The position numbers were made by a program, and so were the translations under genes. From Lota lota (lineage: Eukaryota > Chordata > Actinopteri > Gadiformes > Lotidae), in the NCBI GenBank assembly GCA_026745465.1, contig JACYXH010000719.1:327474-391473 (forward strand): a stretch of 64,000 nucleotides of DNA, written 5' to 3'. The notes below the pieces were generated by a model. The model had not been told where the DNA came from. It searched no databases and saw only the letters and a program-made list of their open reading frames with translations. Each line of letters starts with the position of its first letter. Position 1 is the first letter of the stretch. Shown here one piece after another: positions 29,301-35,300 of the stretch.

Positions 29301-32300
29301 AAAACACCAAAAATCGAAACAAAGAAAAGATCGAGGTCAAGAGCAGTCATAGGACAGGCAAAGGTCAAAACCGTAGGGAAATCCAAAAAACTGGCAGGAA
29401 TAAAACAGGCAGGCAGAATACAGGGCAGCGTGAACTGACTAGGTAAGCTAAGAGCAAACATAAGAACAATCGGACAACATGGCACTGAAAGCACAGGACA
29501 TCAATAGGCTGAGTGATTAGCACAACAACAAACAGGTGAGCAGGAAAAAGGGCGGGAAACAGACAATGGCAGGGTGTACAGGTGAGGGGCAGAGACTTGT
29601 GTGTTTGGTTTATACTTCATGACCTCTCCTTGTGTGTTTGGTTTGTACTTCATGACCTCTCCTTGTGTGTTTGGTTTGTACTTCATGACCTCTCCTTGTG
29701 TGTTTGGTCTGTACTTCATGACCTCTCCTTGTGTGTTTGGTTTGTACTTCATGACCTCTCCTTGTGTGTTTGTACTTCATGACCTTTCCTTGTGTGTTTG
29801 GTTTATACTTCATGACCTCTCCTTGTGTGTTTGTACTTCATGACCTCTCCTTGTGTGTTTGGTTTATACTTCATGACCTCTCCTTGTGTGTTTGGTTTGT
29901 ACTTCATGACCTCTCCTTGTGTGTTTGGTTTGTACTTCATGACCTCTCCTTGTGTGTTTGGTTTGTACTTCATGACCTCTCCTTGTGTGTTTGGTTTATA
30001 CTTCATGACCTCTCCTTGTGTGTTTGGTCTGTACTTCATGACCTCTCCTTGTGTGTTTGGTTTGTACTTCATGACCTCTCCTTGTGTGTTTGGTTTATAT
30101 TTCATAACCTATCCTTGTGTTTTTGGTTTGTACTTCATGACCTCTCCTTGTGTTTTAGGTCGTACCATCTGACGGGTTGCGGGGCATGATGGAGTCAGCC
30201 CTGACGGCCAGAGACCGGGTGGGGGTCCAGGACTTTGTCCTGCTGGAGAACTACACCAGCGAGGCGGCCTTCATAGAGAACCTGCGCAAACGCTTCAAGG
30301 AGAACCTCATCTACGTGAGTGGGTGTGAGTGGACGTGGTCAGGTTGTGAGTGGGCGTGGTTAGGATGTGAATGGGTGTGGTTATGTTGTAACTGGGTGTG
30401 GTTAGGATGTGAGCAGATGTGGTTATTGTGTACGTGGGCGTGGTTATGTTGCACGTGGGTGTGGTTAGGGTGTGCTAGGGGTGTGGTTAGGGTGTGCTAA
30501 GGGTGTGGTTAGGGGTGTGCTAAGAGTGTGGTTAGGGTGTGCTAAGGGTGTGGTTAGGGTGTGAGTAGGAATAGTCTCACAAATCAGACTTTAGATTAAT
30601 AATTAAAGACTGATGGCAGATGGCTCAAATTGACCTTGATAGCTTCATATTTGTTCCACCCAATCATGTTACTGTAAGTGGGGATCTGTAAGCCCATAAT
30701 TTGTTATAAACAGCAAACACAACCTCGGCCAGCACTAGTAAACAGGAAAAAAGTGTCTGTAAAAGGTTCTAATTCAACACCGTGTAGTCTGGCCACTGCA
30801 GGAATACACGTACTAAACCCCCCCTTCCCAGAATCAGTTTCTCTTGGGTAGAATGTCTCAGTAACCAAACAGGAAACGAGGTGTAACTCCACCCCCCCTC
30901 AGCTGTTGGTTTCCGGCCCAGGCTCTGTGCCGTCTCCCCCCAGAAGTTCTGCAGTAACAGAGGACTGCTGGATTAGAGGGGGCGTAGTTAGGGTAAATAG
31001 GTGCTGCAGATATTTAGAGTCATGTGTAGAAAGTACATAGTCCCTTTTTCAAACGAATGGATTATGAGTTATGTATTAGTTTAAACGAATGAATTACGAC
31101 CAAGGCCATCATTATAGTAAGGGCATATTAATGTGGAATGATTCTTTATCTAACGTGCAGAAAAAAATACATTATGGAAACATTAATACTTTTTACTCAG
31201 GATAATAAGAGTTTTATATAATTTATATAACAAACATTTATCAAACATATACATCTTCAAAAAACGCATATTCATGTTTATTCAATAAACATTGGCATGC
31301 ATGATGATATATGTCTAATATATGATCACAATATAATAATAATAATAATAATAATGAAACCTCATATTATGATCAAAATAAGGTAAATATCTTAAGCGAC
31401 ACAGCGCCCCTGAAAGAGGATGAGTGTCACATGGTTGGCTCGTGAGGTCTTCCGAGGACAGCGAGTGGTACGGGGTATTGACCCTGCGGCTCACTGCTCT
31501 TCTCCGTCAGACCTACATCAGCTCTGTGTTGGTGTCGGTGAACCCCTACAAGGACCTGGAGATCTACACCAAGAACCACATGGAGCGCTACCGCGGCGTC
31601 AACTTCTACGAGGTCTCGCCACACATGTGAGTGCTCCACCCGTCTCCCCTGGTGTTACATGTTAACCTCATGTGAGTGCTCCACCCGTCTCCCCTGATGT
31701 TACATGTTAACCTCATGTGAGTGCTCCACCCGTCTCCCCTGATGTTACATGTTAACCTCATGTGAGTGCTCCACCCGTCTCCCCTGGTGTTACATGTTAA
31801 CCTCATGTGAGTGCTCCACCCGTCTCCCCTGATGTTACATGTTAACCTCATGTGAGTGCTCCACCCGTCTACCCTGGTGTTACATGTTAACCTCATGTGA
31901 GTGCTCCACCCGTCTCCCCTGATGTTACATGTTAACCTCATGTGAGTGCTCCACCCGTCTCCCCTGGTGTTACATGTTAACCTCATGTGAGTGCTCCACC
32001 CGTCTCCCCTGGTGTTACATGTCAACCTCATGTGAGTGCTCCACCCGTCTCCCCTGATGTTACATGTTAACCTCATGTGAGTGCTCCACCCGTCTCCCCT
32101 GATGTTACATGTTAACCTCATGTGAGTGCTCCACCCGTCTCCCCTGGTGTTATGTTCTAACCTCATGTGAGTGCTCCACCCGTCTCCCCTGATGTTACAT
32201 GTTAACCTCATGTGAGTGCTCCACCCGTCTCCCCTAATGTTACATGTTAACCTCATGTGAGTGCTCCACCCGTCTCCCCTGATGTTACATGTTAACCTCA

Positions 32301-35300
32301 TTTGAGTGCTCCACCCGTCTCCCCTGGTGTTATGTTCTAACCTCATTTGAGTGCTCCACCCGTCTCCCCTGATGTTACATGTTAACCTCATGTGAGTGCT
32401 CCACCCGTCTCCCCTAATGTTACATGTTAACCTCATGTGAGTGCTCCACCCGTCTCCCCTAATGTTACATGTTAACCTCATGTGAGTGCTCCACCCGTCT
32501 CCCCTGATGTTACATGTTAACCTCATGTGAGTGCTCCACCCGTCTCCCCTGATGTTACATGTTAACCTCATGTGAGTGCTCCACCCGTCTCCCCTGGTGT
32601 TACATGTTAACCTCATGTGAGTGCTCCACCCGTCTCCCCTAATGTTACATGTTAACCTCATGTGAGTGCTCCACCCGTCTCCCCTGGTGTTATGTTCTAA
32701 CCTCATGTGAGTGCTCCACCCGTCTCCCCTGATGTTACATGTTAACCTCATGTGAGTGCTCCACCCGTCTCCCCTGATGTTTTAACCTCACGATGAGGCA
32801 TTTCCACGCTGTTTCCACTCTGTGGCTGGGTGACACACGTGCACGTGTGTCACCCAGCCACAGAGTGTGTGTGTGTTAGGTACTAGTTTCATTGTCTATG
32901 CAGATAGAGTGCTCTCAAATAAGACTCTTCCAGTGTAGTCAACTCGTGGCTTACAGTGTGTCCGTTTTCACAGAGAATCGAAATATTGTGTGTGTGTTGA
33001 CAAGAGTTGCCATGGCAATCTCTCTCTCTCTCTCTCTCTCTCTCTCTCTCTCTCTCTCTCTCTCTCTCTCTCTCTCTCTCTCTCTCTCTCTCTCTCTCTC
33101 TCTCTCTCTCTCTCTCTCTCTCTCTCTCTCTCTCTCTCTCTCTCTCTCTCTCTCTCTCTCTCTCTCTCTCTCTCTCTCTCTCTCTCTCTCTCTCTCTCTC
33201 TCTCTCTCTCTCTCAAATAGAGAGAGAGGGAATGGCCGGTGGTACCAGGCAACAGTTGTCCTCCCTTTAACTATAAGAGCGAGAGAGAGGGGTACTCCTC
33301 TGACCTTAACGTGACCCTTCAACACACACACTCAGCCCCGTGCATTCCATGGCTCGACCCCGGGTGTCTTGAGTCCGCGGTTGTTTCAAGCCAAAGCTGA
33401 AACAACATGGAGGCGCTTGATAGCAGCGTCACCAAGGGGTTCACCGATCCATCCTGGAAGTGGTGCTTTACCACGTGGAAAACCTTCCGAGAATGAGGGC
33501 TTTTGTTTTGTTTGGTTCATTATTAGTTTCCTTAAATAAGGAGGTTGATGATGAATAATGTTGTTAGTGTGATGAGATGAGGTTCTGGATGTTTCCATTC
33601 TCCATATTGTTCCCACCTCATATTAACTGGGTTATCTACTGTTTGTTTTATGAAAAGAGTTTAGATTAATTAGCCAATTCTAATGCAATTCTAATAGTAA
33701 TTTCTTCTTTTGATGATAAAATACCCCTTATTTAATATATCGGGTATGTATATTTATATGCTAATATAAATATATACACTATCAAATGACCGACTGTAGC
33801 GTACCACACGCTACTAGTTGCTCTCTTGCAGACAGAGCTAACTTTATGCTCGGCGCCCTCAGCTGCGAAAACACCTCGGTGCATGGGTGGGGGTGGGGGG
33901 GGGGAGGTGGGGGGGGGGGAAGTGGAAGTGGCCACGCAAAGACAAAGAGCACGTCAGCGTTGCTTTGTCTTTTAAAAAGTCTGCAGAGTAAATGTCCGCA
34001 CCTCGTGCACATGTTCACGTGAAGGTTGTCAAGCGTACACGTCTGTGTGTCATAATGTACACGAACATGTCTCTCTCCCCCCCCCCCCCCCACCCCCCCC
34101 CCCCCCCCACCCCCACCCCCACAGCTACGCCGTGTCGGACAACTCGTACCGCTCCATGCGCACGGAGCGCAAGGACCAGTGCATCCTGATCTCCGGGGAG
34201 AGCGGGGCGGGCAAGACGGAGGCCTCCAAGAAGGTCCTGCAGTACTACGCCGTCACCTGTCCCGCCAGCGACCAGGTGCAGACCATCAAGGACCGCCTGC
34301 TGCAGTCCAACCCCGTGCTGGAGGTGAGCCGTGGGGGGGGGGTCACTTGGCACGTCGAGTTGATCCGGTCGATTTGTCGGGGAGAATGTCAACTTGCGTT
34401 GCGCCTCATTATAGCATGTTGCTCGTTTCCATCTGTCACAGTCCTGGGGCAGGTACCATTACAAAACACAGGTTAGAATACAACGGGATACACATAATAT
34501 GTGGACGAAATTGTCGCTTCAAAACTGTTTACATCAGCCGCGGTGCGTATATGCGGCAATTTCAAATATTAATCGCGCCGTCGTATGTGTACAGTCCCAT
34601 TCAGCTCCATGATTTGTAATTATTTTATTGTGTGAAACCACCTTAGGTGTGTGTGCTGACTGGGCCTCTCATCCCATCTCTACACAGATGATCCATTTGT
34701 AGTCTGCAGCTTACATTTTGCATGAGCACTACAATGTGTGTCCACAGGGAGTATAGTAGTAGAATAGAAGTAATAGCAGTATAGAGGTCATGTTTTGTCT
34801 CATCCAGATGTGTTCCAGATGTCTATGATGTATGTCTGTGCTCAGCGCAGACCCCTGACACCTCTGGTCTCTTATTTGTTACGAACACGCCTCTCCTCTC
34901 TCTCTCTCTCTTGCTCACTTACTCTTTCTTTCATTCTCTCTCTCTCTCTTTCGCTCTTCCTCTCCCTCTCCCATCCGCTCACTGTGTAGTATTATTTGCT
35001 TGTACCTCAACAGTCACACTTTTGTATAATTTGAAACCCCTTTTCTCTCTCATCCCAGGCCTTCGGCAATGCCAAGACATTGCGCAACGACAACTCAAGC
35101 CGCTTTGGCAAGTACATGGACATCCAGTTTGACTTCAAGGTAAAGCCTGAAGATTGTCTGTTCGTGGGAAATGGGGCTAATCTTCATTTCCATGAATTAT
35201 CCCATGGATCCTATGTAGTCCAAGACACAGCATTGTTAAACTGCACACTAATCCAAGATGCTGCCCAGATCTATGGAAGCATTTGTATTTTTTTGTTCTT

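Follow-up and report, generated by a model that had tools for sequence, protein, structure and literature searches.

A 64,000-nucleotide stretch of the Lota lota genome (hereafter the window) contains the gene myo1c, and a 45-bp minisatellite in its intron 3 begins on the splice donor of exon 3 and repeats that donor exactly 23 times. We consider it likely that this is a boundary-spanning minisatellite of the type called a "mirage", mostly neutral, with splicing at the exon-proximal site and slight leakage of transcripts into nonsense-mediated decay (NMD). An earlier reading made from the letters alone (the sequence-only reading) presented the case as singular, which was not borne out: the array belongs to a kind already described, and similar arrays were found elsewhere in the same genome.

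Structure and register of the intron 3 array

The features concerned are listed below in window coordinates; a slash marks an exon-intron boundary.

31511 to 31626, plus strand: myo1c exon 3 (116 nt), ending CACAT in phase 2; supported by phmmer, the join to 34125 and a matching paralogue exon
31624 to 31632, plus strand: true splice donor CAT/GTGAGT, intron from 31627; assigned from sequence, the paralogue donor, homology and frame
31624 to 32781, plus strand: 45-bp minisatellite, 26 units, 23 exact decoy donors; from Tandem Repeats Finder (TRF), the unit listing and junction copies
32302 to 32391, plus strand: units 16 and 17, with TTGAGT (broken decoys); from the unit listing
34125 to 34323, plus strand: myo1c exon 4; from a paralogue match and the in-frame join from exon 3

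TRF analysis of the window reported a repeat of period 45 with 25.7 copies and 95% matches at 31624-32781. Stepping 45 bases at a time from 31627 yields 26 units, of which the final one is incomplete; GTGAGT opens 24 of them, namely the true donor and its 23 decoys, and TTGAGT opens two, at 32302 and 32347. The register and every one of these counts agree with the sequence-only reading, as do the contexts it gave, CACAT at the true site and CTCAT at the decoys. Its position for the array on the donor also stands, but the end lies at 32781 by TRF, not at 32790. The true donor and all 23 decoys are the identical 9-mer CAT/GTGAGT, and CATGTGAGT occurs 24 times on the plus strand of the window, each time inside the array, and not at all on the minus strand. 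CAT is the only exon-side sequence common to the units; extension to six exonic bases leaves no copies in the intron.

Nine different 45-base strings occur among the 26 units, the commonest 11 times. Some later units are identical to the first, so the unit at the splice site seems to be included in homogenisation. Nine of the 45 positions vary among the 25 full units (1, 20, 25, 26, 32, 33, 35, 36 and 37). Position 1, which is the first donor base, varies in two of them; the donor bases therefore show no sign of special conservation, and selection on them is not supported. A dispersed-repeat source of the unit was rejected, as a genome search with 31621-31720 gave 11 matches, all within the array. 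Copies within an array are not independent chance events, and the sole improbable feature is the register on the donor. Intron 3 is 2498 bp long, with 1343 bp outside the array, and random placement would touch either of its ends with a chance of about 0.0015.

Exon 3 joined to 34125 continues an open reading frame. When 1, 2, 23 or 25 units are retained, translation runs to SPHM and meets a premature stop (ATG TGA), as the sequence-only reading had proposed for decoy use. The best phmmer match of exon 3 is a myosin-Ic with a solved structure (E 7.2e-15). A tblastn search with a human MYO1C sequence gave 25 matches, in order, from 30189 to 53706 of the window; exon 3 lies outside this chain and was matched to the paralogue instead. 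The exon number is a label, the exon or exons upstream of 30159 not having been located.

A perfect 52-nt palindrome stands at 32816-32867 (plus strand), 35 nt past the array. In a genome search it matched itself on both strands only, with no copy elsewhere.

A paralogue shares the donor and carries arrays of its own

A paralogue of myo1c lies on contig C453 of this genome, and its exons were matched to those of myo1c by blastp. Its exon 3 ends CACAT/GTGAGT, as in myo1c, and TRF found no tandem repeat at score 30 in its intron 3 (211 bp). The same donor beside an intron without the repeat suggests that the exon 3 donor is ancestral, probably older than the array, and was later captured by the repeat.

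The paralogue has an acceptor counterpart of the myo1c array at intron 11 (L022, 948-2000, minus strand), where a 46-bp unit repeated 22.9 times, with copies 99% alike, ends on the acceptor CCTAG/TTT of the exon encoding SFEQF. The true acceptor comes after 22 exact decoys, copies of TACCTCCTAG/TTT that include three exonic bases. At the intron 13 acceptor, TTGTGTTTAG/GATGAGGAGTGT occurs in three exact copies that include 12 exonic bases. The junction is not copied in the array of paralogue intron 2.

Junction arrays in other genes

In a talin gene at one of the evenly spaced loci (L029, 8176-8354 and 8827-9244, minus strand), the donor of one intron and the acceptor of the next are both repeated in minisatellites. 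The donor is present as three exact copies of AAG/GTCAGA (three exonic bases), and the acceptor as three exact copies of TGTGTGTCAG/ATGACCAGG (nine exonic bases). A kinesin intron of 431 bp (L043, 8351-8757, minus strand) consists almost entirely of a 26/30-bp array with near copies of CAGACAG/GTACT, that is, exon end plus donor; seven copies of CAG/GTACTA have at most one mismatch. In GREB1 an array lies no more than 2 nt from a verified junction that is not itself copied. Pfam or PDB matches support the exons of talin, kinesin, GREB1, myo1c and a HECT-domain gene, which we take to be UBE3B-like.

Junction copies are present at six of the nine junctions examined (myo1c intron 3, paralogue introns 11 and 13, the talin donor and acceptor, and the kinesin donor). 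Recurrence of junction arrays is established for this sample.

Placement of arrays relative to splice sites

Thirty pieces totalling 302,679 bases were sampled. In addition to the window, they took in five from the surroundings of the paralogue, 14 of 10 kb at even spacing along contig C659, two next to the window and eight search loci. A further two, from kinesin, joined at a later stage and had a scan of their own. Arrays were retained at a TRF period of at least 14, at least 2.5 copies and a score of at least 100, with simple repeats removed and the best of overlapping rows kept, which gave 55 arrays. Pyrimidine or TG tracts are expected close to acceptors, and dinucleotide-type repeats were for this reason omitted. 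Both intron ends were readable for 19 arrays in six genes, or 18 once the myo1c intron 3 array itself was excluded. For each array, the gap to the nearer splice site was compared with that expected from random placement, given the intron sequence outside the array.

Several arrays were left out since one intron end was not found. They include the myo1c intron 1 array, which overlaps the acceptor, UBE3B-like donor arrays at L026 6057-6341 and L025 1960-2121 (both some 11 nt into the intron), and an 18-bp array at L023 about 6 nt after GTGAGT. Four arrays contrary to a junction effect were kept: myo1c I14, which is under the score cut, the paralogue last intron, kinesin Ib and UBE3B-like IB. For myo1c intron 2 the longer TRF row was used (30324-30566, 9 nt inside); the best-scoring row is 30457-30563, 142 nt inside.

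Contact or overlap with a junction is seen for five of the 18 arrays, where random placement predicts 0.25 (simulated P 2.5e-6; Fisher P 1.8e-7). Six lie within 2 nt (0.74 expected, P 2.3e-5) and ten within 9 nt (2.47 expected). With myo1c left out, 5 of 15 touch a junction against 0.24 expected. Substituting the row 30457-30563 leaves five of 18 touching, with a Fisher P of 9.1e-7.

The set from myo1c and its paralogue is made up of the arrays above the cut wherever both ends of the intron could be read, whether or not exons were visible. Here two of eight arrays touch a junction (0.09 expected, P 0.0029; Fisher P 0.00056), the same two lie within 2 nt (0.26 expected, P 0.024) and four lie within 9 nt (0.86 expected, P 0.004). 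Among the 19 arrays of the 14 evenly spaced pieces, three come to 2 nt or less from a verified junction, two of them in talin and one in GREB1.

Relation to described boundary minisatellites

We conclude that the myo1c array belongs to an already described class, represented by amphioxus mirages, human ABCA7 and human CBS. Mirages are minisatellite-like tandem duplications over an exon-intron boundary, at donors or acceptors, described in amphioxus for Adh3, the globins BflGb6 and BflGb9, troponin C and PGBD5; many repeat the AG/GT signals, and their length is unstable (PMC3087553, PMC3902484, both consulted in part). In the sections of the first of these papers that we draw on, globin reverse transcription PCR and Adh3 data suggest undisturbed splicing (PMC3087553). 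The myo1c array likewise crosses a boundary, running from 31624 to 32781 over the intron start at 31627, and repeats the splice signal. It differs from the cephalochordate BflGb6, for which excerpts give 3 and 6 units of 150-160 bp, in having 26 units of 45 bp with near-identical decoys, and also in coming from another animal in which several further cases appear in a small sample.

In intron 18 of human ABCA7, the first two nucleotides of a 25-bp variable number tandem repeat (VNTR) are the exon 18 donor. Passages of the report on it state that the donor of the next unit is used in about 2% of transcripts, with a frameshift and stop and no dependence on length, that expression and exon 19 skipping vary with VNTR length, and that no length effect on NMD was seen (PMC5954066). 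The myo1c repeat resembles it in beginning on the donor, which forms its opening intronic bases, and in alternative sites that lead to premature stops. Unlike the ABCA7 unit, which at 25 bp shifts the frame and is polymorphic with measured length effects, the myo1c unit is 45 bp and in frame, meets an immediate TGA, and is known from one assembly.

Text seen of a paper on human CBS gives its 31-bp VNTR as c.1444_1467+7(16_21), a name that suggests 24 exonic and 7 intronic bases per unit, and describes 844ins68 as a 68-bp duplication of part of the intron 7/exon 8 junction with the distal site favoured (PMC2630376). In contrast to the CBS VNTR, the myo1c units share three exonic bases.

What is new here is recurrence within one genome, with 22-23 near-identical decoys at single introns. 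A literature search found no report of such recurrence inside one genome. The search, which named fish in part, also found, going by titles and passages, no report of boundary minisatellites in fish; tandem-repeat papers on fish, seen as extracts, include PMC2688266 and PMC5241972.

Origin of the array and choice of splice site

The reading of the array as a mirage is built on its register, the identical 9-mers, the donor shared with the paralogue and the recurrence at other splice sites. The array would have originated by duplication across the junction: a short segment that began in the final bases of exon 3 and ran on into intron 3 would have been duplicated in tandem, then expanded and homogenised within the intron. 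Duplication over a donor would keep the upstream donor in place, and over an acceptor the downstream acceptor, such that the exon-proximal copy preserves the protein. An array of this kind may be tolerated because the first donor and the whole exon are left intact.

By homology, the copy picked is the first of the series at donors and, at acceptors, the last of up to 23 copies. This exon-proximal choice at both kinds of site fits exon definition, and transcription order as a single rule would not produce it. Splicing would accordingly be expected to take the exon-proximal copy by exon definition, and a small share of transcripts may use a decoy, stop at ATG TGA and be lost to NMD. The array is presumably close to neutral. 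The sequence-only reading had offered, as one of two options, the neutral growth of a repeat out of a splice site; the seeding is well supported by the paralogue donor without a repeat and by the recurrence at other splice sites, and the neutrality is what we infer.

Several points weigh against this account. The HECT, talin, kinesin and GREB1 loci contributed only arrays that lie close to recognisable exons, which inflates the placement effect, and the effect is weaker in the cleaner set from myo1c and its paralogue. With the row 30457-30563 for myo1c intron 2, that pair gives three of eight arrays within 9 nt (P 0.038) and a Fisher P of 0.0030. The other 16 of the 19 evenly spaced arrays were checked for exons by eye only. 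The full junction is not repeated at three of the nine junctions (myo1c intron 2, paralogue intron 2 and GREB1); in myo1c intron 2 the GTGAGT hexamer occurs three further times, and the full 9-mer of the donor does not recur. Exon-side identity at the myo1c donor is three bases (CAT), so a duplication may have taken in little of the exon. That the first donor is the one used is read from homology and the reading frame.

The strongest competitor, which we still judge unlikely, is that the arrays are by-products of geometry, short introns forcing any minisatellite near a splice site with no special tie to the junction. Array density is high (TRF tandem repeat makes up 12% of the sampled bases), and little sequence lies outside the array in kinesin Ia (33 bp), UBE3B-like IC (66 bp), the talin donor intron (67 bp) and the paralogue last intron (70 bp). 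However, the placement test allows from the outset for how much of each intron lies outside the array, and where this is at least 100 bp, 3 of 14 arrays still touch a junction against 0.10 expected (P 0.00012); myo1c intron 3 has its 1343 bp to spare. By TRF, touching arrays also enter the exon by 3-12 bases, unlike placement within an intron, and part of this could be chance identity.

The other option of the sequence-only reading, a brake dependent on copy number in which decoys divert part of the myo1c pre-mRNA into NMD and more units yield less protein, is not favoured over a splice-site-seeded, probably neutral array, and we regard it as distinctly improbable. The tested decoys do give an immediate stop and are identical 9-mers, ABCA7 expression drops with VNTR length in the part of the report consulted (PMC5954066), and the title of one paper links the CBS VNTR to reduced activity. 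In its NMD form, however, the brake fits poorly with the closest precedent, ABCA7, given the low and length-independent unit retention and the lack of a length effect on NMD described there. Variation at nine unit positions, the first donor base included, gives no indication that donor bases are specially kept, and the paralogue intron 3 has no array at TRF score 30, a single comparison that bears on decoy conservation.

It is very unlikely that the decoys are silenced by structure, each pairing with the end of the preceding unit in a 7-bp hairpin that the true donor would lack. A 24-nt stretch around a decoy is predicted to fold with UUACAUG against CAUGUGA (-5.7 kcal/mol), and the true donor is predicted to be more open than 21 of 23 decoys in an 80-base window and all 23 in a 240-base window. 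In a 150-base window, 17 of the 23 decoys equal or exceed the true donor in openness; the prediction thus changes with the folding window, and masking by hairpins was rejected. An assembly artefact in copy number or register is scarcely credible: tandem arrays are generally error-prone in assemblies, but the unit variants (nine distinct strings in 26) stand in non-trivial order, and the array was found once in the genome, on a single 1.48 Mb contig.

Implications of recurrence

Recurrence in one genome would supply arrays of identical splice sites set apart chiefly by how far each lies from the exon, on the donor side in myo1c (23 decoys) and on the acceptor side in paralogue intron 11 (22 decoys). 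Such arrays could serve to distinguish between first-come choice, scanning and exon definition, and could reveal any feeding of intron gain or tuning of expression. A broader proposition is that minisatellites in this lineage are born at splice junctions, where junction duplications would arise or survive often, a sizeable part of genes would carry identical donor or acceptor arrays, and the exon-proximal copy would be picked reliably. We offer this tentatively and lean somewhat against it; if true, the genome as a whole would be a natural experiment in exon definition and would hold a permanent source of new introns.

Other features of myo1c and the window

Exon 2 of myo1c has minisatellites on both flanks, as follows.

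29596 to 30160, plus strand: 33-bp minisatellite whose last, altered unit contains the intron 1 acceptor TTTTAG/G (AG at 30157-30158)
30159 to 30314, plus strand: myo1c exon 2, the first coding exon by homology, ATG at 30189
30315 to 30566, plus strand: intron 2 donor TAC/GTGAGTGGG, then a degenerate 21/42-bp minisatellite (TRF from 30324)

In the 33-bp array before exon 2, TTTAG occurs once against 14 occurrences of TGTTTGG, which indicates that the intron 1 acceptor is not repeated.

Dinucleotide-type repeats lie a few bases from a splice site in several myo1c introns (39228-39342, 43394-43584, 44173-44261 and 46807-46924). Examples are GAG/GTGTGT at 39228, tgtgtccacag at 43590 and a (GT)n TAG acceptor. 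The intron at 49548-49849 is read as GC-AG (GAG/GCTAGT), the GC donor being deduced from frame alone, and has a CA-rich array 14 nt inside; myo1c I20 was treated as a presumed GC-AG intron. The probable last exon of myo1c, at 54333, follows CAG and encodes TAPRLNSR before a stop. Further along the window, an open frame at 62953-63180 resembles a solute transporter exon, with an MFS_1 match far under the cut-off, and may belong to a neighbouring gene.

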